Below are positions 1-49,623 of a stretch of 64,000 nucleotides of DNA, one piece after another (within the stretch, counting starts at the first letter, position 1; each line of letters opens with the position of its first letter). The stretch spans positions 62,001-126,000 of the forward strand of contig JAQMWT010000548.1 of NCBI GenBank assembly GCA_029834535.1, read 5' to 3'. Position numbers and translations under genes: made by a program. Source of the stretch: Chrysophaeum taylorii (Eukaryota > Sar > Pelagophyceae > Pelagomonadales > Pelagomonadaceae). Under the pieces are notes generated by a model. It was not told the DNA's origin, searched no databases, and saw only the letters and a list, made by a program, of their open reading frames with translations.

Positions 1-979
1 CCAACGTCGGATCGCTGGACTTGCCACTAGTGCGACCTCGTCGCAGACGGCCCCGCAAACAACCGGCACGTTCTAGGAGTCGGAACTTCTGCGCCGAGGA
101 CTTCTTCCACGTGACACCATCAATCTAAGCTACCAGGCCTGGTGTTTAGGAGTTGTTACTGTGAGTTCAACTCGTCAGATGCCTGCAGACTGGTAAGCGT
201 GATCGACTCAAATTTGCAGCACACATGTTCATCTCGCGAGGTTGAACTGTGGAAAATTGGAGCTAGAGGGAGTGATCGACGCGCACGCACTTCTAAAGAC
301 TGCGCTCCTGCGGTGCGCAGCCGTCGGAGCTTCTTTGGTGCGTGTGGTCATTCGCCCAGCGTTTCAGCGCTTGTGGGGTCCGATCACGTCGTCGATGTCT
401 CGAGAAGCGTGTTTCTGCTACACACTAACTACGGGAGCGAACTGGGGCTAAGGATCTGTAGGGACGACCAATTCCTAATTTCGCGCATTGTATGCTCGCG
501 CTCGCCTCGGCCGAGCGCGACCGTTCCGAATACAATGTAGTCGACGTCCATACCATCGTGAATACTGCCCCCCCGCCGTGGGGCGTCACCCAGGCGCTTG
601 ATCCAGCGGCTCGTTCATGGTAAAGCGAAAGGTTTTTTTTCCTTCCATCTCCCGATCTATGACTCCTTGGACCGCCCCGCGATTATCCGCACTCAACTTG
701 GCTGTAGGAACTGTGATAGTTTGTGCCAGCGTGCCGACGAGCTACAGCAGGCTACACAACTCAATTACAATCAAATTAAAGAAGTAGCCCTTCATCAACC
801 ATGTGCGCCTAAAAAGCATCGCGAGCGTGCTATCTGCGCCACATTTGGCTGCGGGTGATCGAGAACCGAGTCGTTACACTGTTCTGTACTACAGCAGAAC
901 ACACTAGCGCGTGGTAGCACGCACGAAAGATTCTTCGTACGCACTCGGTCGAGCATACGGTGCAGTGCCGACGAGCGAC
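1..979. other. Non-coding leader upstream of the HORMA gene
   Basis: The first 330 bases or so continue the degenerate satellite-like sequence that ends the preceding unit. Small open frames here (for example 142-540) lack any recognisable composition or motif. From about 540 to 979 I see a C-run, a T-run near 633-640 and no convincing gene. The HORMA promoter should lie here, but I cannot point to a TATA-like element with confidence. Confidence 0.5.
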
Positions 980-2116
980 ATGGCCGAGGAGATGCTTCGA
1001 GCGTCGCGTGGCGAATCGAGACCCGAGCGGTGCACAATGGCGAGCGAGGCGCAGTCGGTTGATATTGTGACCAAGTTCATCGAGCTTACCGTCTACACGA
1101 TTCTTTACCTGCGCAAGATCATTCCCGAGGAGTGCTTCGAAACAATGGACCTTGGAGGTGGCCACGCGTGTCCGTGTCTTGAACTCAACGCAGGCGGGCA
1201 AGCTGGTGCGAATGCCCGAGTGATCCAATCGTGGATTTGTTCTGGGCTCCGGACGGCCATTGCAATGAGGTACCTCAAATCTGCCACGTTCATCATTGCG
1301 GACGACCAAGAGTGCTCTCAAGAGCAGTATACTTTTCGCCTTGCATACCCGTGCAGCGAAAAGATCCAAGTGTCGATGAGCGGACCACGCGTCACTGGAC
1401 GAGAAGTACTCCTGGACTGCGCGCCCGTGTTCAAACAACTTCGACAAATATGGCTTGATCTGACCTTGCTGACGAGCGGTCTGCCACTACCAACCGACGA
1501 AGAGCGCCTCGTTACGATGAAACTCTCGTACACAAGTATCACACCGCCTGGTTACAACCCGCCCTGCTTTCGCACGTGCGCCTCCGATGCATTTGACTTC
1601 GCCAATTCGGGCCCCGCGGCGTCAGTCGCTGTCGGAGGAGAAGGGTTGCACGGCCCCCGCCACAGCTGCAAGTTAGTGTACAAGGGACCTCAAATAAGCC
1701 TGTCGGACTCATTACGCGATGGTCAACCGAGCTCTTCCTCGAAAGACACACCACTCGCGAGCTATTGGCCTAGAGACAATAAGACGTGCAATTGGGGTGA
1801 CGGCACAGGTGCCGACGACAACAAGAACGGGAAGGACGATGACGAGGACGACGAAAAAACGCACGTCTCAGCAGGCCCGGACACCCTAGAGGTCTACGGG
1901 CAGGTGTCGGAATCAAGCTCGTCGAGAAAAAGGCCCCGCGACTTGGCTGGCAAACTGTCGTCACCGCCATGTTCAAAGCGCTTCGAGTGCTCGTATACCG
2001 ACACACAAGACGCCTATTACCATGTCGTGAGTTCGCAGGATTCACGAGTCACGACGTACAAGCGCTACACCATGTGTCGAGAGCCCGTCTCCTTCACACA
2101 ACCCGGCCTCTGCTGA
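980..2116 (+). CDS. HORMA-domain meiotic axis protein (Hop1/HORMAD type), copy A
   Basis: Intronless, 378 residues from the first ATG of the open frame. Residues about 22-225 read as a HORMA domain: the early helix with TILYLRKIIPEECF matches the Hop1/HORMAD ILYLRGIFPEDAF pattern, and the domain ends with LVTMKLSYTSITPPGYNPP, matching the family's LTMKLxYYDDVTPPDYQPP. Hop1/HORMAD proteins load on meiotic chromosome axes, promote double-strand breaks and bias repair to the homologue. The C-terminal third is low complexity: a Ser/Gly linker, an acidic block (DDDEDDE) and a basic nuclear-signal-like KRPRDL. I do not see a clear zinc finger. In this unit it is followed 2.2 kb later by shugoshin-like and RAD51-like genes. 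The protein is identical in copies A and B. Mad2 or Rev7 are less likely because the PPGYNPP end is Hop1-like. Confidence 0.9.
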   Translation: MAEEMLRASRGESRPERCTMASEAQSVDIVTKFIELTVYTILYLRKIIPEECFETMDLGGGHACPCLELNAGGQAGANARVIQSWICSGLRTAIAMRYLKSATFIIADDQECSQEQYTFRLAYPCSEKIQVSMSGPRVTGREVLLDCAPVFKQLRQIWLDLTLLTSGLPLPTDEERLVTMKLSYTSITPPGYNPPCFRTCASDAFDFANSGPAASVAVGGEGLHGPRHSCKLVYKGPQISLSDSLRDGQPSSSSKDTPLASYWPRDNKTCNWGDGTGADDNKNGKDDDEDDEKTHVSAGPDTLEVYGQVSESSSSRKRPRDLAGKLSSPPCSKRFECSYTDTQDAYYHVVSSQDSRVTTYKRYTMCREPVSFTQPGLC

Positions 2117-2947
2117 CCCTCTATCGGTGACACTGGGTTCTCATTCAATCCCTTCGAGTGGTGCGTCTCTTGTAAACTAATCTGCCCTCCTGCCCCGACA
2201 CTCCCCAACCACATCTGGCGGCTCAGACAACGCGCCTCTACCGGCGTCTCTCCTTACAGAAACGCCAACGGCCTACGTCTCTCGGCCGCCGGGTCCCTGG
2301 CGGCGCCCGGACGGTTTGGCCAACGCCTTGCCGTCTCCCTTAAACCCACTCACCCCACTCTCATTTCCGCTCGACGCTCTCACCCCCGCCAGTCTAAGCT
2401 GCTTTGATCAGCGCACGTTCGCTAACCTTTGAGTTTACTCCCAACCATATCCATGCCCTGCGTGATCTGTCCCGTAGCTTTAAGCGCTCGAACTTTAGCA
2501 AGAATAATTTTTCGAACCGAGGCTTGCAGCCAATGTCATGCTTTGTTGCACGACATCGTACACCACGGGACTGGCTAGCAGGGGTGCTTTGCGCGTGATC
2601 CGAAGACGAAATCTCGGCTCGAACGCTGAACTCATATACGTCCCCCACAGTCGCAATCAACCTATTTTGAGCACGCACCCTCCGTTTCATAACGATTCTT
2701 CGCGGTTTACGGTCGACTGCGAGCTCTTCGGTTATACTTAAATGGCTCGAGCGATCTGGTGCGTATAGGGTGCGGCGACACTTCGCAGGGGTAATCCAGC
2801 AGTTGCCTGGCTCGGAGTTGCACGTCAAACTTGGACGTTTGGCACTCGCTGCGCTACCCAGCTCTCGATGTTCGGATTAGGATTTTGTTTGCCCTCGAGA
2901 TTCTTCGGTGGCACCGAGGATTGTACTTTACAATAGATTGGTGAACT

Positions 2948-3302
2948 GCATTGAGCTTTGCCTGTAGAGATGAAATATCAAGTCATCGGAACTATATTCT
3001 AGATAGCGAGTCGCTACCAGTCTTGCTGGAATCAGCTGGTTCGAGATGGCCGGTCAAAACTTTAATTCTAAGCGACCCCCAGCACTCACAGCAGACGAAC
3101 TTTTTCCGACATCCCTCTGTACACATTCTACAATCTTCGATCCTATACTCACACGAGCTTTGACGATGAGTGACGCGACGTTGTGACGCGAGAGTCTCTT
3201 GCGCAGAATCAACTTCCCTGCAGCAAGCAAGGCTTCTGACACAACTCGCAAACACCCCTCCATGGCAACGCGCATGGCTTTGAACGTTTGGCGACGAGCC
3301 AT
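2948..3302 (-). CDS. Candidate small helical protein, possibly spliced (weak)
   Basis: A minus-strand ATG at 3302 opens a helical frame with a GCLRVVSEALLAAGKLIL stretch followed by RLSRHNVASLI, loosely reminiscent of a histone-fold helix-loop-helix. Two strong donor-like GTGAGT sites follow, with acceptors giving introns of about 36 and 54 bp, the size normal here, and an open frame to a stop near 2948. Against it: copy B lacks one base in the C-run inside the first exon, which shifts the frame, so at least one copy would be broken. I do not recognise a family. It may be chance. Confidence 0.2.
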
Positions 3303-3630
3303 AGAGTGTCAACAGCGCGGATGAGTCGTCGAGTCGACGTCAAAGAGGGCCACCGTTCGTTTCTAACTTACATAAATGTCAATTGACAGTTGTTCGGTGG
3401 AGCACGTTGCGGCTTCATGCAGAGGCGCGCTCAGACATCATTCGAATCGAGTCATTCCCGCGAGTGGCGCATGGATTGGTGGCCTGTGGGTGTCAGGAGC
3501 CGAGTAGAAATACGTGCGCGGATTAGAGGTGCGGCGTTTCAAGAGCCCGACTATCACTCGCAAGTTGCGCGCCCGCCTTGTGTTCCGAACTGATGGATTT
3601 ACACAATGTTTTGACTAAATTAGCTTCGGA

Positions 3631-4110
3631 ATGAGCAAAGCGAGTGGTGCACGCGCGCGTCGGCTGCTACGGAGCATGAACTTCGACCCTACGTCGTTCG
3701 AAGACTACGGGAAGCTTGGAGACGGAGCTGGATCGTCACGTGCGCAAGATAATGACATCCGCGGTGCGTGCTTCATTCGAGAAGATCAACAATGCAAGCA
3801 AAGCGAACGCGAGGCCAAGAACGTCACTAAGAGTGCCAAATCAGGCAAGTCAAAACGCAAGCTCACCGCGCCTCTGGGTCAGGCTAAAAAGAATACCGGC
3901 CCCAACGAGCCGAAATGACCATGCGCGGGATTGAACGCGAGACTCGAACAGACCGCGCGGTCACTCGCCCAACAAGGTACGCGAGATTGTCCGTCGGATT
4001 GCTGCCGGTGGAATATTTGACGACCTTACACCTCCGCCATTCCCGCCTTTTTGATTGTCCTGTAGACCTGTTCTCGATGCCTCGACGACCTCCGGCATCC
4101 CGCAGAAGGG
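3631..4110 (+). pseudogene. Possible decayed coiled-coil gene between HORMA and shugoshin-like genes (weak)
   Basis: From the ATG at 3631 a short basic protein of 95 residues can be read, but protein-like sequence switches frame: the second frame (from 3716) reads METELDRHVRKIMTSAV, and near 3930-4060 two other frames give ARLEQTARSLAQQ and REIVRRIAAGGIFDDL. Charged, heptad-like composition suggests one coiled-coil protein broken over three frames, or an intron pattern I cannot solve. Both full units carry the same arrangement. No family assigned. Confidence 0.25.
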
Positions 4111-4286
4111 TAGCTGATTATTTTACTCGGCTAGCCACCTCTTGGTCGAAGCTAATAAGACGGTGTCAGAAGGGCGCCTTAGTAGTACTTTCCGATAACT
4201 CTCTCAGCTCGAACGACGGTCGCAAGGCCTTCGGTCCAGCTTCCTCGAGGGTGTGAACGGGCGCGCCACGATTCCCGAACGCCACG

Positions 4287-4658
4287 TCAGGGTTGCCTCA
4301 TCTTGACTTTGAGCGACGGCTCCGCGTACGACACGACGCGCGTGCTTCTGGCTGGTCTATGAAGGGCTGCGGCGGATAGTGGATGCGTCGGATGCTCGTT
4401 GAAAGAGCTGGCTCTTTCGGAAGCGCTGATAGATTCGGATTGGATTGTCTTGTTCGAGCGCTCGCTAGTTGTGCGCACCTTGAGAAGCTCTCTTGTCAGG
4501 GCAGAAATCTGGCGTTCGTATCGGATTCTTTCTAACTTGAGACGCGCGACTTCTGCGGCAAGCTCCTTGTTGTTCGACTGGAGCGAAGCTAGTCGAACTT
4601 CATTCACGGTGGTGGAGGGCGCCGTGAGGTCACGTCGTCGTCGTCGCCGAACGATCAT
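4287..4658 (-). CDS. Shugoshin-like protein, copy A
   Basis: Single-exon, 123 residues. After a basic N-terminus, residues about 22-65 form a heptad-rich coiled coil (ASLQSNNKELAAEVARLKLE and onward), the position of the shugoshin N-terminal dimerisation/PP2A-binding coil. The C-terminus ends with RSTRVVSYAEPSLKVKMRQ, which fits the shugoshin C-terminal basic motif (R..R..V.Y..PSL..K.R). Shugoshins protect centromeric cohesin from separase through PP2A and bind phosphorylated H2A via the basic box. The protein is shorter than most shugoshins, with only about 35 residues between coil and basic box. It is divergent from the recombinase gene with 227 bp between starts. Copies A and B differ by one residue (N/K near position 19) and a few silent changes. 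Confidence 0.75.
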   Translation of the reverse strand: MIVRRRRRRDLTAPSTTVNEVRLASLQSNNKELAAEVARLKLERIRYERQISALTRELLKVRTTSERSNKTIQSESISASERASSFNEHPTHPLSAAALHRPARSTRVVSYAEPSLKVKMRQP

Positions 4659-4885
4659 TGGCTTCAGTCCAATGTGTACCAGACACGTGATGTTCTACTA
4701 CTGTTGTCAAGCAGGATCACCCAATATTATCACCATCCGGCGTGGAAAAATACATCCACAAAATTACGTGGATGTACGCAGTTAGACGTTACAATTCGTA
4801 ACTCCCAGAATTGGTACTACCAAGGCGACATCAACGGCCAAACATCACAACTGTAATAAAGCTGGTTGCTCATTAATCAACGACG
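4659..4885. promoter_or_regulatory. Divergent promoter between shugoshin-like and RAD51-like genes, with inverted repeat
   Basis: This 227-bp gap separates the two divergent start codons. It contains a perfect 9-bp inverted repeat at 4751-4776 (TACATCCAC, 8-nt spacer, GTGGATGTA), repeated at 13737-13762 in unit B. A palindrome midway in a divergent promoter is a natural candidate for a dimeric regulator site shared by both genes. That is inference; no known site is recognised. Confidence 0.45.
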
Positions 4886-6248
4886 ATGGACGTCAACGCC
4901 GGAACCCTGTCTGAGACGGAGACTGCGCTCGCACGCGCCGAACCAGTTCAGCAAGCTGATGCCAGCAACCACTTGGTCAACGAAGAAGACGTGCTCGAAG
5001 ACGAGGACGACATCGACACGCCCGTCACGTTCCTGCACGTCGAGGACCTCGCCGCCCACGGTGCACACGCAGGAGAGATTTCCAAGCTGCGAAAGGTGCG
5101 CTCTTGTCTTCTTGCTGACTGCTTGCCCGACAGAGAGCGCGCAGCGCGGACTGACGACGGTCGGGCTCGTCGCAAGCGCGTCGATGAGAGAACTGATCGA
5201 GGTGCCAGGGCTTTCGACCGAGCGCGCCGACTTCTTGCGCAAGAAAGCCAAACTAGTCGACGGCAAGTCCGGCGTCGTCTTCGCCTCGGGTCTGGACCTC
5301 GTGCGGTCGATGAAGACCAAGATCACGACCGGGAGCGCCGCCCTCGACGCACTCATCGGTGAGATTGGACGCGAGGCTGGACGTGTCAAAATCCAACGAG
5401 CTGTTACAGGTGGCGGCGTTGAGACGAAGACTATCACCGAGCTGTACGGCGACAGCGCAACTGGCAAGACCCAGCTCTGTCACGCGCTGTGCGTGCGGAC
5501 TCAGTTCGCTCGAGACCAAGGCGGCGCGGAGGGCTGCGCGCTGTACATCGACACAGATCAGACGTTCCGTCCAGACCGAATCCAGCAGATTGCGGAGGCC
5601 GTCGGTTTCGGTGAGGATCGCCGTGACATGCTGTTTCGTCTGAGAGTGCCACCGCGCAGACCCACAGCAAATTCTGGGGAATATCGTCGTGATCAAAGCC
5701 ACCAGCTTCGATCATCAATGCGAAATCGCCACCGCGGCGACTCGCGTGCTTGCAGACCCACCGAGTGGCGAGTTTCGTCTCATCATCGTAGACAATCTCA
5801 TGACCCACCTGCGCGCCGAATATGCTGGCCGCGGAGAGCTCGCGGCACGACAGCAAGCCCTAAACAGTCACCTCCGTTGGCTCAAACAGCTCGCCGACGA
5901 GTTCGACTGCGCCGTCGTGGTCACGAATCAGGTCTCCACAGTCCCCGAGGCCTTCGCTATGGGCGGGGCCACCGTCAAGCCCTGCGGCGGGCCTGTCCTG
6001 GCTCATAACGCCCCGATGCGAATCTGGTTGCGCAAAGGGCGCGCACAGCAAAAAAAAGCCACGCTTGAACATTCGGCCTTCATGCCAAAAGGTAGGACTC
6101 CTCTTGTGTCTATTGCTGCGCCGACCGAGACAGTTAGAAGCGACTGTCGTCGCGTCTGTAACTTTTTGGAAGCATGAGCGCGCGCGCAGGCGACTGCCTC
6201 TTCTCCATCGTAGCCGCAGGGATCGTCGACTCGATTGAAGGAGCTTAA
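4886..6248 (+). CDS. RAD51/DMC1/RadA-family recombinase, copy A (five exons)
   Basis: Modelled as exons 4886-5095, 5136-5358, 5410-5610, 5660-6091 and 6190-6248 (introns 40, 51, 49 and 98 bp), giving 374 residues. An acidic N-terminus precedes a helix-hairpin-helix region (GLTTVGLVASASMRELIEV). The core has Walker A GDSATGKTQ, YIDTDQTFRPDRIQQIAEAV, DPQQILGNIVV, Walker B FRLIIVDNL, GRGELAARQQ, VTNQV and GGPVLAHNAP, and ends CLFSIVAAGIVD like the family's FAIT..GI.D terminus. Joining exons restores conserved motifs at every junction, which supports the splice sites; only the first acceptor (5134-5136) is uncertain. The family forms filaments on single-stranded DNA for strand exchange. Walker A is unusual: GDSATGKTQ instead of GEFRTGKTQ. 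I cannot decide between RAD51 and DMC1. Copies A and B differ by one residue (T7A). Confidence 0.9.
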
Positions 6249-6899
6249 GCGCCCGTCCCTCGCTGGTGAAAGAGCAGAATGAAATTTGACGTGCTGGTGC
6301 TTGTTAACAGCGTGGTTCGTCGTGCTGAATGTCCCGAAGAACTCGTTCTCGCTCTCGAGTCCAAAATTGTCCGCCTGTCTGGCTCGCCGATGTCTAACTT
6401 AACGCGACGATTTCATCGCGAATGAGTTCACTCCACATCGATCAAGACCGCACAAACCCTTGAAGACGCGCAGAAGAAACCGTCGCGGCCCACCCTCGCA
6501 CGACTGCGCCACACTGTTTCGAACACACGAGACCACTCGTCGGAGCGACGACCGCCTCTATCTATCGTTATAAAAAATGGTCCACCACTGCGCGAAGAAT
6601 AAAGGCAACGAGACGGCGCGCAGATGCACAGCTAAGTAGGTCTCAGTGATTCATCAGTTGTGGCTGCTAGCACATGTGGGAGCATATCGAGCATAGATGA
6701 GACCTTAGGTGTCGATGGTTTGAATAAAACACTCGAGGGATAGCAGCACTCACAATAAGCATACGTTGTTGCGTGTCGGTTCGCGTGCCACAAACGTAGT
6801 GGACTCAGTTCAAGACGACCAGGCTTTGGCCGACTTTGGAGCGTGCAATACATCCGTTGGTTATCGATATACTCGTTCAGATGTGGTCTATGATGCATA
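6249..6899. other. Region downstream of the recombinase gene
   Basis: No gene recognised. A minus-strand frame at 6632-6898 has no motif and overlaps the start of the satellite-like region. The sequence TATAAAAAATGG near 6568 is A/T-rich but has no identifiable gene behind it. Confidence 0.4.
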
Positions 6900-9330
6900 T
6901 CAGGCCTTGGACTGATGGATTTCGCACTAGTTAACCCCGCAGTTTATGATCCCTGCGCGCGGAGCACGCACGCCATGCGTATGAACTTTGGGCTGCGGAT
7001 TCTGCGCGTGATGGCATCGCTCCAAGCTGCTAGGCGATGCGTCGATAAGGTGCGCGAAGCCACTCAGAATTCTGAAGACTTGGACCGTTGCGAATACATG
7101 TCATCGTCCGAAACCTTCGCGCGCGCACAGAAACCGCGGGAGTTGAAGCTTGGAGCTTTTAGCAGCGCGTGCATCTTTAGATTGAGCGCCAAGAACCCGC
7201 GGTCGTTGGACTTGCTTTGATGTGTGTTCACGTTCGAGGTCTGCCCGCATTGTCAGCCCAAATCGTATCTGTAGAATCGTGCGCAAAGTCGAGAGTAGCA
7301 GATTGTGGCGACGACGTATGAGTGAATCTCTACTCATTCCATTTCGCTCCTAATGCCGTCGCCCTGATGCTCGAAACGATTCCGACCCACCGGGTTGGAC
7401 TTTAGCTTGTCAGATTGTCTGGCGTCTTCGCGCGCTGCAACTTGTAGAAGTCTCAGTTTGGTGGTTCGAGACATCAACCCGAGGGTAGAAAACTCTGCAA
7501 CACGTACCGTAATTAGGGTGTAGGCTCTCAATTGTCTTACCACGTAATATTAGGCTGTGTTCGGTTATCTAGATCCAAGCTGCTTGGATCGCTGGATTTG
7601 CCACTAGTCTGCGGCGCGATTGATTACGGTTACGCGCGCGCGCGCACACTATGCACGCACGTGACCGAAATGCTAGGCTGCGGACTCGGGACGCGTGACA
7701 CCAACACTCCTAGGTACTAGGAGAGGCGTTTAGGGGTCGCTTAGGTGTGGTCAGCCGTTCGCATACTTTTGAAGTCTATTCCGAATAATTGATGGAATAT
7801 GGTTTGACACCCGTGTCGCGAGCGCGCGAACTGCTCGACTTGGAGCTTTGGGTAATTAAGCGCACATACTGACTTCTAGAGTTCGTGTTCTAGCGAGTCG
7901 CAATCGTTAAAGTTGCGTTGACATGCATGGTCATTCAGTCTCGGACGTCTCTGTGCGCTCTCAGCTCCGAACGTTTTTAGTGTCGGGCACGCAGCGTCGA
8001 GCATATCAGGTTGTGGCGACAACGTGTGGGTAATTCACTAGTCTTTTCCCTACGCCTGGAGTGAGTTCGCCGTACTGTTCGAAACGAGTCCGACCCGGCT
8101 GCGAACACAATCGTTCGACTCTGCGTGTCGGTTTGTCGGATGTTTGTTCGCAAGTGTGTTTGTGCGAAAACTGTAGTGGTCTCAGTGAGAGACGTCGGTC
8201 CGTGCGCATTCGCCTCTACAGCGTCGAGCCTATCTATAACTTATCCTTTCACTCTTTTAGATGAGTTCGGCCATGCAGATCCAACCTTGGATCGCTGGGT
8301 TTGATACTAATCCGGGCTCCATTGATGATTTCTGCCGCAGGATGGCTGCGCGCGCGGACTCCACGTGACCAAAGTTCTATGCTGTGGACTCCCGAGACGT
8401 GACAGCAACACTCCAAGCTACTACTGAGATGCATTCATGCGGGGCTCGCTTACCATGTGCTCAGCCCTTGACATGGAACCGAGGAATTCCGCGCTATTGA
8501 CTCTAAGCGTTATTATCCACGCGCAAGCCGCGGAAGTTGGAGCTCGAGGTCCTAAACGGCGCGCGCACTAGTCTACAGCGTGTGATGTTGCGATGCACAG
8601 CTGTAAGCCCCGAGCTGGCGTTCGCAATCATTCGGGCCCCAGGTCTTCGCTGGATTTGCCTTTTTGAGTCCACCGCATCCAAGGACGGGTCTGAACGGTT
8701 GTACGCACGCGCGCGCGCAGACTCCAGGAGTCAGATCTTCTGGACCGAGGACTCCGTATTTGTGACACCATCAACCCCAACTACTTGGCGGTGCGTTTCG
8801 GAGTTGGTTCGATGTGTCGAGCTGTTTACATGTCTCGGGGCTCGTGCGCCCGATCAACTGGTAAAGTGTTCGTTCGCGAGTGGTAACGGTCACGATGCGA
8901 GAGGTCAGCCGAGCGTAGAACTTCGACAGTGTGCATTCTATCTGTGGGCTATTAAGATACTGGTTTACACGGTTCGTTCATTCAAATCCAACGTCGGATC
9001 GCTGGACTTGCCACTAGTGCGACCTCGTCGCAGACGGCCCCGCAAACAACCGGCACGTTCTAGGAGTCGGAACTTCTGCGCCGAGGACTTCTTCCACGTG
9101 ACACCATCAATCTAAGCTACCAGGCCTGGTGTTTAGGAGTTGCTACTGTGAGTTCAACTCGTCAGATGCCTGCAGACTGGTAAGCGTGATCGACTCAAAT
9201 TTGCAGCACACATGTTCATCTCGCGAGGTTGAACTGTGGAAAATTGGAGCTAGAGGGAGTGATCGACGCGCACGCACTTCTAAAGACTGCGCTCCTGCGG
9301 TGCGCAACCGTCGGAGCTTCTTTGGTGCGT
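6900..9330. repeat. Degenerate satellite-like repeats, period about 0.7 kb (sub-period about 0.35 kb)
   Basis: Variants of one sequence recur: the anchor GGATCGCTGGATTTGCC at about 7588, 8289 and 8997, a half-step version near 8650, and a weaker one near 6913. A second anchor (TTGGAGCT) recurs at about 7147, 7845, 8535 and 9247, and TGTGGCGACRACGTRTG at about 7302 and 8012. Between anchors the monomers share a CG-alternating tract and GTGACACCA-like words but are heavily diverged. This nested array straddles the junction between 9-kb units, so it is older than the unit amplification. Open frames here (8537-9115 for instance) look accidental. Confidence 0.75.
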
Positions 9331-9966
9331 GTGGTCATTCGCCCAGCGTTTCAGCGCTTGTGGGGTCCGATCACGTCGTCGATGTCTCGAGAAGCGTGTT
9401 TCTGTTACACACTAACTACGGGAGCGAACTGGGGCTAAGGATCTGTAGGGACGACCTATTCCTAATTTCGCGCATTCTATGCTCGCGCTCGCCTCAGCCG
9501 AGCGCGACCGTTCCGAATACAATGTAGTCGACGTCCATACCACCGTGAATACTGCCCCCCCGCCGTGGGGCGTCACCCAGGCGCTTGATCCAGCGGCTCG
9601 TTCATGGTAAAGCGAAAGGTTTTTTTTCCTTCCATCTCCCGATCTATGACTCCTTGGACCGCCCCGCGATTATCCGCACTCAACTTGGCTGTAGGAACTG
9701 TGATAGTTTGTGCCAGCGTGCCGACGAGCTACAGCAGGCTACACAACTCAATTACAATCAAATTGAAGAAGTAGCCCTTCATCAACCATGTGCGCCTAAA
9801 AAGCATCGCGAGCGTGCTATCTGCGCCACATTTGGCTGCGGGTGATCGAGAACCGAGTCGATACACTGTTCTGTACTACAGCAGAACACACTAGCGCGTG
9901 GTAGCACGCACGAAAGATTCTTCGTACGCACTCGGTCGAGCATACGGTGCAGTGCCGACGAGCGAC

Positions 9967-11103
9967 ATGGCCGAGGAGATGCTTCGAGCGTCGCGTGGCG
10001 AATCGAGACCCGAGCGGTGCACAATGGCGAGCGAGGCGCAGTCGGTTGATATTGTGACCAAGTTCATCGAGCTTACCGTCTACACGATTCTTTACCTGCG
10101 CAAGATCATTCCCGAGGAGTGCTTCGAAACAATGGACCTTGGAGGTGGCCACGCGTGTCCGTGTCTTGAACTCAACGCAGGCGGGCAAGCTGGTGCGAAT
10201 GCCCGAGTGATCCAATCGTGGATTTGTTCTGGGCTCCGGACGGCCATTGCAATGAGGTACCTCAAATCTGCCACGTTCATCATTGCGGACGACCAAGAGT
10301 GCTCTCAAGAGCAGTATACTTTTCGCCTTGCATACCCGTGCAGCGAAAAGATCCAAGTGTCGATGAGCGGACCACGCGTCACTGGACGAGAAGTACTCCT
10401 GGACTGCGCGCCCGTGTTCAAACAACTTCGACAAATATGGCTTGATCTGACCTTGCTGACGAGCGGTCTGCCACTACCAACCGACGAAGAGCGCCTCGTT
10501 ACGATGAAACTCTCGTACACAAGTATCACACCGCCTGGTTACAACCCGCCCTGCTTTCGCACGTGCGCCTCCGATGCATTTGACTTCGCCAATTCGGGCC
10601 CCGCGGCGTCAGTCGCTGTCGGAGGAGAAGGGTTGCACGGCCCCCGCCACAGCTGCAAGTTAGTGTACAAGGGACCTCAAATAAGCCTGTCGGACTCATT
10701 ACGCGATGGTCAACCGAGCTCTTCCTCGAAAGACACACCACTCGCGAGCTATTGGCCTAGAGACAATAAGACGTGCAATTGGGGTGACGGCACAGGTGCC
10801 GACGACAACAAGAACGGGAAGGACGATGACGAGGACGACGAAAAAACGCACGTCTCAGCAGGCCCGGACACCCTAGAGGTCTACGGGCAGGTGTCGGAAT
10901 CAAGCTCGTCGAGAAAAAGGCCCCGCGACTTGGCTGGCAAACTGTCGTCACCGCCATGTTCAAAGCGCTTCGAGTGCTCGTATACCGACACACAAGACGC
11001 CTATTACCATGTCGTGAGTTCGCAGGATTCACGAGTCACGACGTACAAGCGCTACACCATGTGTCGAGAGCCCGTCTCCTTCACACAACCCGGCCTCTGC
11101 TGA
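9967..11103 (+). CDS. HORMA-domain meiotic axis protein (Hop1/HORMAD type), copy B
   Basis: Same 378-residue protein as the copy at 980-2116, with identical predicted sequence, HORMA core (TILYLRKIIPEECF at the start, TPPGYNPP at the end), acidic block and basic tail. Upstream sequence is also nearly identical, so both copies are likely to be expressed alike unless silenced as repeats. Confidence 0.9.
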   Translation: MAEEMLRASRGESRPERCTMASEAQSVDIVTKFIELTVYTILYLRKIIPEECFETMDLGGGHACPCLELNAGGQAGANARVIQSWICSGLRTAIAMRYLKSATFIIADDQECSQEQYTFRLAYPCSEKIQVSMSGPRVTGREVLLDCAPVFKQLRQIWLDLTLLTSGLPLPTDEERLVTMKLSYTSITPPGYNPPCFRTCASDAFDFANSGPAASVAVGGEGLHGPRHSCKLVYKGPQISLSDSLRDGQPSSSSKDTPLASYWPRDNKTCNWGDGTGADDNKNGKDDDEDDEKTHVSAGPDTLEVYGQVSESSSSRKRPRDLAGKLSSPPCSKRFECSYTDTQDAYYHVVSSQDSRVTTYKRYTMCREPVSFTQPGLC

Positions 11104-13272
11104 CCCTCTATCGGTGACACTGGGTTCTCATTCAATCCCTTCGAGTGGTGCGTCTCTTGTAAACTAATCTGCCCTCCTGCCCCGACACTCCCCAACCACA
11201 TCTGGCGGCTCAGACAACGCGCCTCTACCGGCGTCTCTCCTTACAGAAACGCCAACGGCCTACGTCTCTCGGCCGCCGGGTCCCTGGCGGCGCCCGGACG
11301 GTTTGGCTAACGCCTTGCCGTCTCCCTTACACCCACTCACCCCACTCTCATTTCCGCTCGACGCTCTCACCCCCGCCAGTCTAAGCTGCTTTGATCAGCG
11401 CACGTTCGCTAACCTTTGAGTTTACTCCCAACCATATCCATGCCCTGCGTGATCTGTCCCGTAGCTTTAAGCGCTCGAACTTTAGCAAGAATAATTTTTC
11501 GAACCGAGGCTTGCAGCCAATGTCATGCTTTGTTGCACGACATCGTACACCACGGGACTGGCTAGCAGGGGTGCTTTGCGCGTGATCCGAAGACGAAATC
11601 TCGGCTCGAACGCTGAACTCATATACGTCCCCCACAGTCGCAATCAACCTATTTTGAGCACGCACCCTCCGTTTCATAACGATTCTTCGCGGTTTACGGT
11701 CGACTGCGAGCTCTTCGGTTATACTTAAATGGCTCGAGCGATCTGGTGCGTATAGGGTGCGGCGACACTTCGCAGGGGTAATCCAGCAGTTGCCTGGCTC
11801 GGAGTTGCACGTCAAACTTGGACGTTTGGCACTCGCTGCGCTACCCAGCTCTCGATGTTCGGATTAGGATTTTGTTTGCCCTCGAGATTCTTCGGTGGCA
11901 CCGAGGATTGTACTTTACAATAGATTGGTGAACTGCATTGCGCTTTGCCTGTAGAGATGAAATATCAAGTCATCGGAACTATATTCTAGATAGCGAGTCG
12001 CTACCAGTCTTGCTGGAATCAGCTGGTTCGAGATGGCCGGTCAAAACTTTAATTCTAAGCGACCCCCAGCACTCACAGCAGACGAACTTTTTCCGACATC
12101 CCTCTGTACACATTCTACAATCTTCGATCCTATACTCACACGAGCTTTGACGATGAGTGACGCGACGTTGTGACGCGAGAGTCTCTTGCGCAGAATCAAC
12201 TTCCCTGCAGCAAGCAAGGCTTCTGACACAACTCGCAAACACCCTCCATGGCAACGCGCATGGCTTTGAACGTTTGGCGACGAGCCATAGAGTGTCAACA
12301 GCGCGGATGAGTCGTCGAGTCGACGTCAAAGAGGGCCACCGTTCGTTTCTAACTTACATAAATGTCAATTGACAGTTGTTCGGTGGAGCACGTTGCGGCT
12401 TCATGCAGAGGCGCGCTCAGACATCATTCGAATCGAGTCATTCCCGCGAGTGGCGCATGGATTGGTGGCCTGTGGGTGTCAGGAGCCGAGTAGAAATACG
12501 TGCGCGGATTAGAGGTGCGGCGTTTCAAGAGCCCGACTATCACTCGCAAGTTGCGCGCCCGCCTTGTGTTCCGAACTGATGGATTTACACAATGTTTTGA
12601 CTAAATTAGCTTCGGAATGAGCAAAGCGAGTGGTGCACGCGCGCGTCGGCTGCTACGGAGCATGAACTTCGACCCTACGTCGTTCGAAGACTACGGGAAG
12701 CTTGGAGACGGAGCTGGATCGTCACGTGCGCAAGATAATGACATCCGCGGTGCGTGCTTCATTCGAGAAGATCAACAATGCAAGCAAAGCGAACGCGAGG
12801 CCAAGAACGTCACTAAGAGTGCCAAATCAGGCAAGTCAAAACGCAAGCTCACCGCGCCTCTGGGTCAGGCTAAAAAGAATACCGGCCCCAACGAGCCGAA
12901 ATGACCATGCGCGGGATTGAACGCGAGACTCGAACAGACCGCGCGGTCACTCGCCCAACAAGGTACGCGAGATTGTCCGTCGGATTGCTGCCGGTAGAAT
13001 ATTTGACGACCTTACACCTCCGCCATTCCCGCCTTTTTGATTGTCCTGTAGACCTGTTCTCGATGCCTCGACGACCTCCGGCATCCCGCAGAAGGGTAGC
13101 TGATTATTTTACTCGGCTAGCCACCTCTTGGTCGAAGCTAATAAGACGGTGTCAGAAGGGCGCCTTAGTAGTACTTTCCGATAACTCTCTCAGCTCGAAC
13201 GACGGTCGCAAGGCCTTCGGTCCAGCTTCCTCGAGGGTGTGAACGGGCGCGCCACGATTCCCGAACGCCACG

Positions 13273-13644
13273 TCAGGGTTGCCTCATCTTGACTTTGAGC
13301 GACGGCTCCGCGTACGACACGACGCGCGTGCTTCTGGCTGGTCTATGAAGGGCTGCGGCGGATAGTGGATGCGTCGGATGCTCGTTGAAAGAGCTGGCTC
13401 TTTCGGAAGCGCTGATAGATTCGGATTGGATTGTCTTGTTCGAGCGCTCGCTAGTTGTGCGCACCTTGAGAAGCTCTCTTGTCAGTGCAGAAATCTGGCG
13501 TTCGTATCGGATTCTTTCTAACTTGAGACGCGCGACTTCTGCGGCAAGCTCCTTGTTGTTCGACTGGAGCGAAGCTAGCCGAACTTCCTTCACGGTGGTG
13601 GAGGGCGCCGTGAGGTCACGTCGTCGTCGTCGCCGAACGATCAT
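13273..13644 (-). CDS. Shugoshin-like protein, copy B
   Basis: 123 residues, the same N-terminal coiled coil and C-terminal VSYAEPSLKVKMRQ basic motif as copy A. It differs by Lys instead of Asn near residue 19 and by silent changes, including one in the codon for Ala of ISALT and one for Arg of VRLAS. An open frame kept with mostly silent differences argues for function. Confidence 0.75.
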   Translation of the reverse strand: MIVRRRRRRDLTAPSTTVKEVRLASLQSNNKELAAEVARLKLERIRYERQISALTRELLKVRTTSERSNKTIQSESISASERASSFNEHPTHPLSAAALHRPARSTRVVSYAEPSLKVKMRQP

Positions 13645-13871
13645 TGGCTTCAGTCCAATGTGTACCAGACACGTGATGTTCTACTACTGTTGTCAAGCAG
13701 GATCACCCAATATTATCACCATCCGGCGTGGAAATATACATCCACAAAATTACGTGGATGTACGCAGTTAGACGTTACAATTCGTAACTCCCAGAATTGG
13801 TACTACCAAGGCGACATCAACGGCCAAACATCACAACTGTAATAAAGCTGGTTGCTCATTAATCAACGACG
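13645..13871. promoter_or_regulatory. Divergent promoter, copy B, inverted repeat conserved
   Basis: Same 227-bp divergent gap. The 9-bp inverted repeat is retained at 13737-13762. One A/T change just upstream of it separates the copies. Confidence 0.4.
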
Positions 13872-15234
13872 ATGGACGTCAACGCCGGAGCCCTGTCTGA
13901 GACGGAGACTGCGCTCGCACGCGCCGAACCAGTTCAGCAAGCTGATGCCAGCAACCACTTGGTCAACGAAGAAGACGTGCTCGAAGACGAGGACGACATC
14001 GACACGCCCGTCACGTTCCTGCACGTCGAGGACCTCGCCGCCCACGGTGCACACGCAGGAGAGATTTCCAAGCTGCGAAAGGTGCGCTCTTGTCTTCTTG
14101 CTGACTGCTTGCCCGACAGAGAGCGCGCAGCGCGGACTGACGACGGTCGGGCTCGTCGCAAGCGCGTCGATGAGAGAACTGATCGAGGTGCCAGGGCTTT
14201 CGACCGAGCGCGCCGACTTCTTGCGCAAGAAAGCCAAACTAGTCGACGGCAAGTCCGGCGTCGTCTTCGCCTCGGGTCTGGACCTCGTGCGGTCGATGAA
14301 GACCAAGATCACGACCGGGAGCGCCGCCCTCGACGCACTCATCGGTGAGATTGGACGCGAGGCTGGACGTGTCAAAATCCAACGAGCTGTTACAGGTGGC
14401 GGCGTTGAGACGAAGACTATCACCGAGCTGTACGGCGACAGCGCAACTGGCAAGACCCAGCTCTGTCACGCGCTGTGCGTGCGGACTCAGTTCGCTCGAG
14501 ACCAAGGCGGCGCGGAGGGCTGCGCGCTGTACATCGACACAGATCAGACGTTCCGTCCAGACCGAATCCAGCAGATTGCGGAGGCCGTCGGTTTCGGTGA
14601 GGATCGCCGTGACATGCTGTTTCGTCTGAGAGTGCCACCGCGCAGACCCACAGCAAATTCTGGGGAATATCGTCGTGATCAAAGCCACCAGCTTCGATCA
14701 TCAATGCGAAATCGCCACCGCGGCGACTCGCGTGCTTGCAGACCCACCGAGTGGCGAGTTTCGTCTCATCATCGTAGACAATCTCATGACCCACCTGCGC
14801 GCCGAATATGCTGGCCGCGGAGAGCTCGCGGCACGACAGCAAGCCCTAAACAGTCACCTCCGTTGGCTCAAACAGCTCGCCGACGAGTTCGACTGCGCCG
14901 TCGTGGTCACGAATCAGGTCTCCACAGTCCCCGAGGCCTTCGCTATGGGCGGGGCCACCGTCAAGCCCTGCGGCGGGCCTGTCCTGGCTCATAACGCCCC
15001 GATGCGAATCTGGTTGCGCAAAGGGCGCGCACAGCAAAAAAAAGCCACGCTTGAACATTCGGCCTTCATGCCAAAAGGTAGGACTCCTCTTGTGTCTATT
15101 GCTGCGCCGACCGAGACAGTTAGAAGCGACTGTCGTCGCGTCTGTAACTTTTTGGAAGCATGAGCGCGCGCGCAGGCGACTGCCTCTTCTCCATCGTAGC
15201 CGCAGGGATCGTCGACTCGATTGAAGGAGCTTAA
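13872..15234 (+). CDS. RAD51/DMC1/RadA-family recombinase, copy B (five exons)
   Basis: Exons 13872-14081, 14122-14344, 14396-14596, 14646-15077 and 15176-15234 by offset from copy A; all splice signals are preserved. The 374-residue product has the same Walker A (GDSATGKTQ), Walker B and terminal GIVDS motif. The only residue change seen is Ala for Thr at position 7, in the poorly conserved N-terminus. Confidence 0.9.
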
Positions 15235-15889
15235 GCGCCCGTCCCTCGCTGGTGAAAGAGCAGAATGAAATTTGACGTGCTGGTGCTTGTTAACAGCGTG
15301 GTTCGTCGTGCTGAATGTCCCGAAGAACTCGTTCTCGCTCTCGAGTCCAAAATTGTCCGCCTGTCTGGCTCGCCGATGTCTAACTTAACGCGACGATTTC
15401 ATCGCGAATGAGTTCACTCCACATCGATCAAGACCGCACAAACCCTTGAAGACGCGCAGAAGAAACCGTCGCGGCCCACCCTCGCACGACTGCGCCACAC
15501 TGTTTCGAACACACGAGACCACTCGTCGGAGCGACGACCGCCTCTATCTATCGTTATAAAAAATGGTCCACCACTGCGCGAAGAATAAAGGCAACGAGAC
15601 GGCGCGCAGATGCACAGCTAAGTAGGTCTCAGTGATTCATCAGTTGTGGCTGCTAGCACATGTGGGAGCATATCGAGCATAGATGAGACCTTAGGTGTCG
15701 ATGGTTTGAATAAAACACTCGAGGGATAGCAGCACTCACAATAAGCATACGTTGTTGCGTGTCGGTTCGCGTGCCACAAACGTAGTGGACTCAGTTCAAG
15801 ACGACCAGGCTTTGGCCGACTTTGGAGCGTGCAATACATCCGTTGGTTATCGATATACTCGTTCAGATGTGGTCTATGATGCATATCAG

Positions 15890-18320
15890 GCCTTGGACTG
15901 ATGGATTTCGCACTAGTTAACCCCGCAGTTTATGATCCCTGCGCGCGGGAGCACGCACGCCATGCGTATGAACTTTGGGCTGCGGATTCTGCGCGTGATG
16001 GCATCGCTCCAAGCTGCTAGGCGATGCGTCGATAAGGTGCGCGAAGCCACTCAGAATTCTGAAGACTTGGACCGTTGCGAATACATGTCATCGTCCGAAA
16101 CCTTCGCGCGCGCACAGAAACCGCGGGAGTTGAAGCTTGGAGCTTTTAGCAGCGCGTGCATCTTTAGATTGAGCGCCAAGAACCCGCGGTCGTTGGACTT
16201 GCTTTGATGTGTGTTCACGTTCGAGGTCTGCCCGCATTGTCAGCCCAAATCGTATCTGTAGAATCGTGCGCAAAGTCGAGAGTAGCAGATTGTGGCGACG
16301 ACGTATGAGTGAATCTCTACTCATTCCATTTCGCTCCTAATGCCGTCGCCCTGATGCTCGAAACGATTCCGACCCACCGGGTTGGACTTTAGCTTGTCAG
16401 ATTGTCTGGCGTCTTCGCGCGCTGCAACTTGTAGAAGTCTCAGTTTGGTGGTTCGAGACATCAACCCGAGGGTAGAAAACTCTGCAACACGTACCGTAAT
16501 TAGGGTGTAGGCTCTCAATTGTCTTACCACGTAATATTAGGCTGTGTTCGGTTATCTAGATCCAAGCTGCTTGGATCGCTGGATTTGCCACTAGTCTGCG
16601 GCGCGATTGATTACGGTTACGCGCGCGCGCGCGCACACTATGCACGCACGTGACCGAAATGCTAGGCTGCGGACTCGGGACGCGTGACACCAACACTCCT
16701 AGGTACTAGGAGAGGCGTTTAGGGGTCGCTTAGGTGTGGTCAGCCGTTCGCATACTTTTGAAGTCTATTCCGAATAATTGATGGAATATGGTTTGACACC
16801 CGTGTCGCGAGCGCGCGAACTGCTCGACTTGGAGCTTTGGGTAATTAAGCGCACATACTGACTTCTAGAGTTCGTGTTCTAGCGAGTCGCAATCGTTAAA
16901 GTTGCGTTGACATGCATGGTCATTCAGTCTCGGACGTCTCTGTGCGCTCTCAGCTCCGAACGTTTTTAGTGTCGGGCACGCAGCGTCGAGCATATCAGGT
17001 TGTGGCGACAACGTGTGGGTAATTCACTAGTCTTTTCCCTACGCCTGGAGTGAGTTCGCCGTACTGTTCGAAACGAGTCCGACCCGGCTGCGAACACAAT
17101 CGTTCGACTCTGCGTGTCGGTTTGTCGGATGTTTGTTCGCAAGTGTGTTTGTGCGAAAACTGTAGTGGTCTCAGTGAGAGACGTCGGTCCGTGCGCATTC
17201 GCCTCTACAGCGTCGAGCCTATCTATAACTTATCCTTTCATTTTTTAGATGAGTTCGGCCATGCAGATCCAACCTTGGATCGCTGGGTTTGATACTAATC
17301 CGGGCTCCATTGATGATTTCTGCCGCAGGATGGCTGCGCGCGCGGACTCCACGTGACCAAAGTTCTATGCTGTGGACTCCCGAGACGTGACAGCAACACT
17401 CCAAGCTACTACTGAGATGCATTCATGCGGGGCTCGCTTACCATGTGCTCAGCCCTTGACATGGAACCGAGGAATTCCGCGCTATTGACTCTAAGCGTTA
17501 TTATCCACGCGCAAGCCGCGGAAGTTGGAGCTCGAGGTCCTAAACGGCGCGCGCACTAGTCTACAGCGTGTGATGTTGCGATGCACAGCTGTAAGCCCCG
17601 AGCTGGCGTTCGCAATCATTCGGGCCCCAGGTCTTCGCTGGATTTGCCTTTTTGAGTCCACCGCATCCAAGGACGGGTCTGAACGGTTGTACGCACGCGC
17701 GCGCGCAGACTCCAGGAGTCAGATCTTCTGGACCGAGGACTCCGTATTTGTGACACCATCAACCCCAACTACTTGGCGGTGCGTTTCGGAGTTGGTTCGA
17801 TGTGTCGAGCTGTTTACATGTCTCGGGGCTCGTGCGCCCGATCAACTGGTAAAGTGTTCGTTCGCGAGTGGTAACGGTCACGATGCGAGAGGTCAGCCGA
17901 GCGTAGAACTTCGACAGTGTGCATTCTATCTGTGGGCTATTAAGATACTGGTTTACACGGTTCGTTCATTCAAATCCAACGTCGGATCGCTGGACTTGCC
18001 ACTAGTGCGACCTCGTCGCAGACGGCCCCGCAAACAACCGGCACGTTCTAGGAGTCGGAACTTCTGCGCCGAGGACTTCTTCCACGTGACACCATCAATC
18101 TAAGCTACCAGGCCTGGTGTTTAGGAGTTGCTACTGTGAGTTCAACTCGTCAGATGCCTGCAGACTGGTAAGCGTGATCGACTCAAATTTGCAGCACACA
18201 TGTTCATCTCGCGAGGTTGAACTGTGGAAAATTGGAGCTAGAGGGAGTGATCGACGCGCACGCACTTCTAAAGACTGCGCTCCTGCGGTGCGCAACCGTC
18301 GGAGCTTCTTTGGTGCGTGT
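15890..18320. repeat. Degenerate satellite-like repeats, copy in unit B running into unit C
   Basis: Same nested 0.35/0.7-kb degenerate monomers as at 6900-9330, spanning the B/C unit junction. The CG dinucleotide run near 16622 is 2 bp longer than in unit A, and there is a one-base insertion near 15949. Confidence 0.7.
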
Positions 18321-19085
18321 GGTCATTCGCCCAGCGTTTCAGCGCTTGTGGGGTCCGATCACGTCGTCGATGTCTCGAGAAGCGTGTTTCTGCTACACAC
18401 TAACTACGGGAGCGAACTGGGGCTAAGGATCTGTAGGGACGACCAATTCCTAATTTCGCGCATTGTATGCTCGCGCTCGCCTCGGCCGAGCGCGACCGTT
18501 CCGAATACAATGTAGTCGACGTCCATACCATCGTGAATACTGCCCCCCCGCCGTGGGGCGTCACCCAGGCGCTTGATCCAGCGGCTCGTTCATGGTAAAG
18601 CGAAAGGTTTTTTTTCCTTCCATCTCCCGATCTATGACTCCTTGGACCGCCCCGCGATTATCCGCACTCAACTTGGCTGTAGGAACTGTGATAGTTTGTG
18701 CCAGCGTGCCGACGAGCTACAGCAGGCTACACAACTCAATTACAATCAAATTGAAGAAGTAGCCCTTCATCAACCATGTGCGCCTAAAAAGCATCGCGAG
18801 CGTGCTATCTGCGCCACATTTGGCTGCGGGTGATCGAGAACCGAGTCGATACACTGTTCTGTACTACAGCAGAACACACTATCGCGCGGTAGCACGCACG
18901 AAAGATTCTTCGTACGCACTCGGTCGAGCATACGGTGCAGTGCCGACGAGCGACATGGCCGAGGAGATGCTTCGAGCGTCGCGTGGCGAATCGAGACCCG
19001 AGCGGTGCACGATGGCGAGCGAGGCGCTGTCGGTTGATATTGTGACCAAGTTCATCGAGCTTACCGTCTACACGATTCTTTGCCT
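17976..19085. repeat. Truncated tandem unit C, right end of the array
   Basis: Follows the unit consensus for about 1.1 kb and departs from it between 19081 and 19087. Its last 200 bases carry more substitutions against A and B than the A-B pair shows (for example near 18884, 19011 and 19028), as expected for an edge copy less well homogenised. The break lies inside the HORMA gene and abuts retrotransposon sequence. Confidence 0.9.
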
Positions 19086-19215
19086 GCTTGGGATGCAATC
19101 CGGAGGGATATGTTTCTACACCTGTGTAAGACGTTTACAGGAAAAGTTGGAGACAGCGACGCGCGCAACGGCTTCTGCCACGCTGAACCGCACCCGACGC
19201 AACGAATCGGGTTGA
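18955..19215 (+). pseudogene. 5' fragment of the HORMA gene, array edge
   Basis: Retains the start codon and about 42 residues (through VYTIL) of the HORMA protein, with Gln replaced by Leu in the SEAQ segment. After about 19083 the frame runs into unrelated retrotransposon-side sequence and stops at 19213-19215. No HORMA core remains. Confidence 0.85.
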
Positions 19216-21182
19216 TTCGCAGCTGCAGCTTAGATTCCATCACCCCTTTTTCAAGCGTGCAACTCGGCATTCGCAGCGTTCACGCAGCATCCTCGGCCGC
19301 CGCGCTTCGCTTGCTCCTTACTCCTCTGCGAGTTGCTCGTCGTGCCGTTTCCATGGCGGTGGTACAGGCAAATAACGCTGCATCTGCTCGATGTGTGACG
19401 GGCGGAATGCCGGGTGCGAGTCGCTTGGTGGCGCGTCGCGATATTGGGAGATTATCGGCTTTCTCAAGAGCGGTTTGTCCAAGGTTAGATAGTCACGTCA
19501 GACGATCATGCAAAAGGCAGATGGTGCGCGCTGTTCAACACCTCAGGGGCATGGCGAAGTGTTCCGTGTACACCCTGCGAAACTATGCAGCCGACAACCT
19601 TGTTTTGACGCAGGAGTCATTAAGGATATAGCACTGCGGCCAATCGGTGATGAAATTGTTGTTGTACCGTCAGATGACGAGATAAGTCGCGCTGTACGGC
19701 AACTTAGTCTTTCAGCTACTGGAGCATCAGGCGTTCGTACGGAGATATAGCGGACGCTCGCTGCTCGAAAGAGCACGTTAAGGACCCTCAGAACTAAAGT
19801 GCATGATTTCTGTTCGTCCAAGAAAAAACAACCGGAAGAATGGGATATCGGCCTTCTTTGTATTTTGCCGAAGAAAGGTGACCTTTCGCTGCCAGGTTCT
19901 TATCGCGGCGTCATGATGTTCGAGGTCACGGAAAAGATTGTCTCCAACATCATACGCGTTCGTCTCGGTGTCATATCCGCTGAGCTAGAACACGAATCGC
20001 AGTGCGGCTTTCGGCCGGAACGGGGGACTGCCGACGCAGCCTTCAGCCTGAAGATGGCATTGAAGAAGCGTTGTGAGGATGGCATGGAAACGTGGGTTTT
20101 ATCCATTGATTTCGTAAGGGCGTTCGACCGGGTCCCGCGGGAACTACCATGGCAAGTGCTATCGAAGTTCGGCGTTCCAAAGAAACTCGTACGCCTCATT
20201 ATAGCGCTCCACAATACATAAAAGCTGTTCTCCGTCTCCGGCGCTGCCGCTTCGATGGACTCACTCATCGGCGTTAAGCAGGGTTGTGTCATAGGTCTGA
20301 TTCTTTTCGTTCTATACATGGCGGCTTTGACCATCTCGTGGTGTCGACGCGAAGGTCGGGAACCAGTATGCGTTTTCAAGACGAAGCAAGACGAAGTACT
20401 CACTGGACGTCGCTACAACGCAAACGCGTCATCGAGCGAAGTTGTACTCGAAGAGGCAGCGTGTGCAGATGAAGTGGCGTTTCCGTTTCCCGATCAACGT
20501 GCTGTGAACGAGGAGATGGCCCGTCTCATCAGGCACATTGCCAGATTTAGTATGGAAATCCATGTGGGTGACCGCCAGTCAGGGAAAAAGTCGAAATCCG
20601 AGATACTGTTTGTTGCCAAGCCAGGCATTTTCTTCAAGGACCCGGAAACCTGCGATGGTGCCGACCTCTCCGACATAGACGTGACGGTTATTCATATCCT
20701 CGTGGTGGCGACGTTCAAATACCTGGGCTCGGTACTCTCTCGCAACTGTAGTGACTCTGAAAATGTTGACTCTCGTCTGAAGAAGGCGGCAGCGGCTTTC
20801 AGTGCGCTCCGTCACCAAGTTTTCGCCTTGAGACACGTTTCTGCTCGAGAAAAGCGAATTGTCTACTTCGGTCTCATCCTCCGGTGTGGAATTATGGTGC
20901 CCGATAGAGTTGTCTACAATCGCCTACGATACTTTCACGCATCAAAACATCAACCCTCCTCTGGTGCCCTGGCCTGGAGACTATCGATACATACATCTCT
21001 CGCGACAACTACTCTAGGCAGGCCATGTTGCCCGGATGTCTTGGAATCGCCTCATTCGAAAGGTGCTCTCCTCCTGGTGCGCTTCCAAACGTCCACAGTT
21101 AACTTACAAGCCGGTTTCTCAACAAGGCACTCCACAAATTCCACGAACTAACGAAGACCTTGTACTAACTAACTAACTAACT
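19086..21182 (+). mobile_element. Decayed non-LTR retrotransposon (LINE), reverse-transcriptase part
   Basis: Frames on the + strand read as the RT half of a LINE: a pre-RT segment (19508-19749), LPKKGDLSLPGSYRGVM, CGFRPERGTADAAFSL and FVRAFDRVPRE (19799-20221), then GVKQGCVIGLILF, a corrupted catalytic box CADEVAF where YADD is expected, and a thumb-like region to about 21150. In-frame stops at 19749 and 20219 and a frame change near 21000 show it is dead. No endonuclease domain is recognisable; sequence from 19086 to 19500 is of unclear origin. The 3' end is a short CTAA tail shared with the next repeat. Clade not determined. Confidence 0.8.
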
Positions 21183-49538: not shown

Positions 49539-49623
49539 AATGAATGTCTGGCGACAGAGCCTTTTCTAGAAGAGTGTTGCGCAGCTTTCCGGCAAAAAAA
49601 CGCCCCCCCGCCGTTAGCGTCAC

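Follow-up and report, generated by a model that had tools for sequence, protein, structure and literature searches.

A tandemly arrayed cassette of HORMA, shugoshin-motif and RAD51-family genes in the pelagophyte Chrysophaeum taylorii

A 64,000-bp stretch of contig C548 of Chrysophaeum taylorii (Pelagophyceae; C548:62001-126000, hereafter the window, in an assembly of 70.8 Mb and 697 contigs) opens inside a head-to-tail array. Its repeated unit carries a HORMA-domain gene, a small gene with a shugoshin motif, a gene of the RAD51/DMC1 family and a short conserved open reading frame (ORF4). A second, diverged array carrying the same genes lies on contig C639. The notable point is that the amplified units, which also encode a divergent recombinase, hold every HOP1-type HORMA and Shugoshin_C gene detected in this assembly. 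Genes for meiosis usually occur singly and apart from one another, and no paper on a cassette of this kind appeared among the results of literature searches on the linkage or tandem repetition of meiotic genes. We lean towards the view that the cassette is a predicted meiotic module of the alga itself, maintained in concertedly evolving arrays that resemble those of ribosomal DNA (rDNA). If confirmed, it would offer a natural case for testing selection on the linkage and dose of meiotic proteins, and pelagophyte genomes could be screened with it as a marker of cryptic sex. Positions given below without a contig name are those of the window.

Self-alignment of C548 (222,282 bp; array boundaries were taken from C548:1-126000, assembled from pieces) places the array at C548:60138-81087, or window -1862 to 19087, with a period of 8,988 bp, 2.33 units and 99.5% identity over 11,966 aligned bases. 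All units are on the forward strand. Unit 1 (1-7125) extends a further 1,862 bp beyond the left end of the window (C548:60138-62000), unit 2 (7126-16112, 8,987 bp) is whole, and unit 3 (16113-19087) is broken off inside the HORMA gene. A spacer at 7282-9144 contains degenerate subrepeats of about 707 bp that are roughly 70% alike. A sequence-only reading of the window had proposed a head-to-tail repeat of about 9 kb, which is borne out by the self-alignment. Its details required adjustment. The repeat had been placed at 1-19085, but the array begins left of the window and ends at 19087 (C548:81087), within the third HORMA copy. The copies are indeed near-identical, although measured values are slightly lower than the 99.8% first given (99.66% over 10,102 aligned bases for 8988-19087 against 1-10099, in addition to the 99.5% above). 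Reading frames are intact in the full copies, but the third HORMA copy is truncated. Finally, the unit had been described as holding three genes; all three are present, but ORF4 (3631-3918) had been overlooked. Inside the C548 unit (2253-2444) there is also a repeat of some 190 bp that is dispersed over at least 34 further contigs; C639 is not among the matches listed.

The head-to-tail repeat is real at the level of the assembly. That the assembler merely duplicated a single unit is extremely improbable, even though the genome, described with 10,810 genes, was put together from mixed Illumina, Nanopore and PacBio data with an N50 of 157 kb (PMC10366177) and C639 ends in its array. Copies 1 and 2 on C548 differ at 45 unevenly spread alignment columns, the truncated copy 3 has differences of its own, and the second array has a different period. 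Over the stretch present in all three C548 copies, 27 sites are peculiar to copy 1, and 21 of these fall within its first 1.15 kb; copy 2 is the odd one out at 7 sites and copy 3 at 6. This pattern fits that expected for homogenised inner copies and a non-homogenised edge.

The second array occupies 8749-38140 of C639 (38,346 bp), with a period of 12,329 bp and 99.9% identity. The HORMA, ORF4, shugoshin-motif and recombinase genes have the same order and orientation as on C548, and the unit contains a fifth gene (gene5, 255 amino acids, C639:19273-20040). A further gene5 copy, 75% identical, lies just left of the C548 array (C548:58839-59603), and gene5 was found only in or beside the two arrays, single beside that on C548 and inside the unit on C639. 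The difference could reflect either a separate amplification with different borders or the loss of gene5 from the C548 units. No Pfam family matched gene5 above its cut-off. An HMG-box identity, guessed from the look of the sequence, was dropped, as Pfam returned only EBP50_C at 16 bits, below the cut-off; the predicted structure, made from 2 sequences, was too poor for use (mean predicted local distance difference test score, pLDDT, 52.8).

Gene identity between the two arrays is approximately 80% over the gene stretches, compared with 99.5% and 99.9% within them. Together with the diverged left edge on C548, this fits concerted evolution. The arrangement recalls rDNA arrays in its head-to-tail units, subrepeated spacer, homogenised copies and diverged edge, but differs in that the repeated genes are protein-coding and of meiosis type, and the copies few. 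Unequal crossing-over across the subrepeated spacer would expand, shrink and homogenise each array, as in rDNA, with the subrepeats of about 707 bp as a plausible substrate. The two arrays diverged long ago: synonymous divergence (dS) between them is 0.31 for HORMA, 0.25 for the shugoshin-motif gene, 0.29 for the recombinase and 0.46 for ORF4. The corresponding ratios of non-synonymous to synonymous divergence (dN/dS) are 0.26, 0.33, 0.077 and 0.30, so that comparison of the arrays shows purifying selection on these four genes. The reading frame is intact in the full copies, of which there are five for HORMA, four each for ORF4, the shugoshin-motif gene and the recombinase, and three for gene5.

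The HORMA assignment made from sequence alone holds up in profile searches. Copy 1 (980-2116, forward strand) is one open exon of 378 amino acids and, scored on 911-2116, matches Pfam HORMA (PF02301) at 95.9 bits against a cut-off of 24. Copy 2 (9967-11103, forward) shows no DNA difference from it within the gene, and the truncated copy 3 lies at 18955-19087 (forward). HORMAD1 was the sole PDB sequence match of the protein. In a profile search of the PDB, HORMAD1 (5.5e-8) and Caenorhabditis elegans HIM-3 (about 3e-4) came ahead of MAD2B (0.017) and MAD2A (0.2), and an unnamed HORMA protein (8cxk) also outranked MAD2B and MAD2. By these comparisons the cassette protein is nearer to the meiotic HORMADs than to MAD2 or REV7. 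Like HOP1/HORMAD axis proteins it combines an N-terminal HORMA domain, a long, poorly conserved acidic stretch and a short conserved C-terminal peptide, but Pfam reports no zinc-finger or PHD domain and the gene is in tandem copies. The peptide, which follows the acidic stretch, is conserved in all five aligned sequences (two from C. taylorii and three relatives) and may be a closure motif. A structure predicted from this five-sequence alignment was too poor for use (mean pLDDT 36.3), and scans of viral contigs with the HORMA protein and the HORMA alignment, together with one scan of genome contigs, returned no relative.

The shugoshin-like assignment was likewise upheld by its profile check. 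The gene (copy 1, 4287-4658; copy 2, 13273-13644, with N19K relative to copy 1; both on the reverse strand) encodes 123 amino acids, and the Shugoshin_C motif (PF07557), at residues 101-121, scores 38.3 bits against a cut-off of 23.3; all three aligned family members match. The protein resembles shugoshins in having the conserved motif at its C-terminal end. In shugoshins an N-terminal coiled coil binds PP2A-B56; the N-terminal half here gives only weak matches to unrelated coiled-coil families. It differs in that the cassette proteins are only 121-123 amino acids long and Pfam reports no N-terminal shugoshin domain. ORF4 (copy 1, 3631-3918; copy 2, 12617-12904, without difference; both forward) encodes 95 amino acids, with 73% amino acid identity to the C639 copies. 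It occurs at four places in the genome, all within the two arrays, and matched no Pfam family.

The recombinase gene (copy 1, 4886-6248, forward strand) has five exons (4886-5095, 5145-5358, 5410-5610, 5660-6091 and 6190-6248) separated by four GT-AG introns of 49, 51, 49 and 98 bp, and encodes 371 amino acids, among which we presume a Walker A motif. GT-AG borders are found at every intron of all four copies across both arrays. Copy 2 (13872-15234, forward) differs from copy 1 by T7A and is identical, letter for letter, to the public C. taylorii protein CTAYLR_004732 (P0004). Pfam Rad51 matches two pieces of the open reading frame at 91.3 and 114 bits (cut-off 22), so the RAD51 family stands, whereas the DMC1 part of the original "RAD51/DMC1-like" label rested on the best match only. 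Full-length alignments favour yeast DMC1 (255.9 bits) over yeast RAD51 (240.1), but human RAD51 (226.7) over human DMC1 (210.9). We rejected a canonical DMC1 identity, as the protein scores below the NCBIfam DMC1 cut-off and does not group with DMC1 in trees. In a 31-row tree the recombinase and its relatives form their own clade (support 100/100), which includes a "DMC1-like protein" of Pelagophyceae sp. CCMP2097, P0009, encoded on a contig of 355,332 bp. For this tree 26 P sequences were chosen; P0008, P0011 and the C639 copy, all present in an earlier 47-row tree, were among those left out. P0005-P0011 and the cassette recombinase together make up a RAD51-family branch that is divergent, well supported and distinct from canonical DMC1, RAD51 and RadA. 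Forcing the clade together with DMC1 or with RAD51 was weakly rejected by the approximately unbiased test (p-AU 0.036 and 0.033, respectively), for a clade with a long stem and with groups that were named after the 47-row tree was known. The protein aligns over its full length with yeast DMC1 and RAD51 but belongs, with the CCMP2097 protein, to a distinct and divergent clade. Its sequence could be that of a DMC1 that evolves fast or that of a lineage separate from DMC1. A paper on Pelagomonas names DMC1 among the genes of that alga (PMC9481584).

The divergent shugoshin-motif and recombinase genes are separated by 227 bp (4659-4885), a possible shared promoter. The axis protein, cohesion protector and strand-exchange protein would be supplied together from several co-inherited copies, and tight linkage would hold matched alleles together and raise dose in meiosis. 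Searches with the HORMA and shugoshin-motif proteins recovered no public C. taylorii protein, whereas the public protein identical to recombinase copy 2 carries the label hypothetical. Perhaps the HORMA and shugoshin-motif genes are silent in vegetative culture. The main text of the genome paper contains none of the words meio-, sexual, haploid or diploid on a word search (PMC10366177).

A search of the whole assembly for meiosis-type genes found Shugoshin_C at four places, all four in the arrays, and HORMA at seven, five of them in the arrays. The remaining two HORMA genes look, from our own reading of their sequences, like MAD2 (C348) and REV7 (C54). Of 12 stretches matching Rad51, eight are in the arrays; the others are on C498, C36 (103 bits), C309 (74 bits) and C149 (35 bits). 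That on C498 is canonical RAD51 (495.6 bits against an NCBIfam cut-off of 478.05). A TP6A_N gene of SPO11 or topoisomerase VI A type is on C52, MND1 on C487, weak TBPIP (HOP2-type) matches on C581 and C78 (33.9 and 27.2 bits) and one Rad21/Rec8 kleisin on C38. A canonical RAD51 is therefore present elsewhere, but this search of the assembly found no further HOP1-type HORMA or Shugoshin_C gene, an absence that is provisional because the assembly is incomplete and the search ran exon by exon.

This bears on the idea that the unit is a selfish amplicon, a repeat that gains transmission through recombination and cohesion proteins acting on itself. Such an element would fit the presence of meiosis-type genes in an island that is multi-copy, rich in repeats and low in GC (guanine plus cytosine). 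Against this, the lack of a second HOP1-type and Shugoshin_C set makes it less likely, again provisionally, that the arrays are a selfish addition to a normal complement, and purifying selection on the only set found gives it a host-like character. Furthermore, none of the nine open reading frames of the C548 unit scanned with Pfam carries a transposase, integrase or reverse transcriptase profile. A reverse transcriptase-like sequence does lie right of the array (19799-21151, forward strand), outside the unit; it has RVT_1 in 19799-20221 (54.6 bits) and no Pfam match above cut-off in 20255-21151. We consider the selfish reading very improbable.

Several observations weigh against the cassette being the alga's own meiotic module. 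The recombinase copy 2 protein reaches only 295 bits with the NCBIfam DMC1 model (cut-off 447.7) and passes the RadA model PRK04301 (299.2 bits, cut-off 259), which the C498 RAD51 passes too, and the best tree splits DMC1 and RAD51 from a group of the recombinase clade with archaeal RadA (98/93). A structure search with the shugoshin-motif protein matched no shugoshin structure. The genome search may miss genes split by many introns, and the assembly is reported to recover 81.5% of eukaryote BUSCOs (PMC10366177). Copy number comes from this one assembly, in which C639 ends inside its own array and its final 206 bp match a different part of the unit at 94.8%. Relatives of two of the genes count in its favour. 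Searches returned three relatives for HORMA and one for the shugoshin-motif protein. P0001, the best of the HORMA relatives (47% identity), and P0124, the only one for the shugoshin-motif protein (47%), share a source, and in both cases the contig measures 38,114 bp; the identical size suggests that this is probably one contig and that the HORMA-shugoshin linkage is probably old and conserved, equal size being an indirect sign. The recombinase has no relative on a 38,114-bp contig among the 120 listed of at least 168.

A rival reading is that the genes are ordinary neighbours whose linkage is old but inconsequential, and that the locus was tandemly duplicated by chance. Tandem duplication is common, the array as assembled is short and its surroundings are rich in repeats and retrotransposons. 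On the other hand, both loci are arrays and their unit borders differ, and two of the genes seem to have linked relatives in another source. The linkage of three meiosis genes would moreover be rare under random gene order: in a simulation that assumed such an order and 25 meiosis genes in 10,810 slots, 139 of 200,000 trials brought three of them into a run of five slots (10 of 200,000 with 10 genes, 601 of 200,000 with 40). We regard chance neighbours as unlikely.

The arrays also stand out in base composition. GC content is 0.546 over C548:56-84 kb, compared with 0.613 to the left and 0.652 to the right, and 0.535 on C639. At third codon positions (GC3) the five cassette genes range from 0.58 to 0.73, against 0.72-0.91 in RAD51, the TP6A_N gene, MAD2 and REV7, although the ranges touch (recombinase 0.73, REV7 0.72). 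In Pelagomonas calceolata, low-GC troughs mark centromeres according to a paper on that alga (PMC9481584). Low GC in the arrays is only a hint of a centromere or of low recombination, because a retrotransposon stretch of C548 is likewise low in GC.

These features raise a tentative alternative, namely that the arrays represent diverged haplotypes, or gametologs, of a single sex or mating region in which recombination is suppressed and which captured meiotic genes. The same gene order in two versions at a dS of about 0.25-0.46, with canonical RAD51, TP6A_N, MND1 and the kleisin at one place each, would agree with this, as would low GC and the lower GC3 of the cassette relative to unlinked genes, expected where recombination is rare, and the centromeric troughs of Pelagomonas. 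Supergenes and sex or mating loci similarly hold functionally related genes in tight linkage in low-GC sequence; the cassette, by contrast, has no known sex-determining gene. The 8.7-kb left flank of the C639 array has no collinear unique match to C548:1-126000, its matches being to a retrotransposon and dispersed repeats. Moreover, GC3 ranges touch, a retrotransposon stretch of C548 is also low in GC, no sex-determining gene was recognised, and gene5 matches no Pfam family above its cut-off. We think this origin rather unlikely. More doubtful still is a meiotic supergene in which an axis protein, a cohesion protector and a third, pelagophyte-specific RAD51-family type would sit in non-recombining amplified arrays forming two sex or mating haplotypes. 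Were this true, the locus controlling sex would also carry meiotic machinery.

A number of further features lie around the arrays. The left flank of the C639 array contains open reading frames resembling those of a long terminal repeat (LTR) retrotransposon (C639:19-3678, perhaps to 4523), with RT_RNaseH, integrase zinc-binding, rve and weak RVT_1 matches. A tandem satellite of about 1.04 kb, with copies roughly 90% identical, occupies the contig start (C548:1-5242) and recurs once near 124 kb (C548:123678-124657). Rfam gave no match in the window at gathering thresholds. A second low-GC island lies at 50000-60000, where the longest open reading frame (51651-53369) has a beta-helix match only below the cut-off. 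A near-identical dispersed repeat of about 320-360 bp is present in both orientations at 21164-21525, 58822-59183 and 62657-62972. Finally, an open reading frame at 47208-49565 encodes a dynamin-family protein with a C-terminal PDZ domain, to our knowledge an unusual combination.

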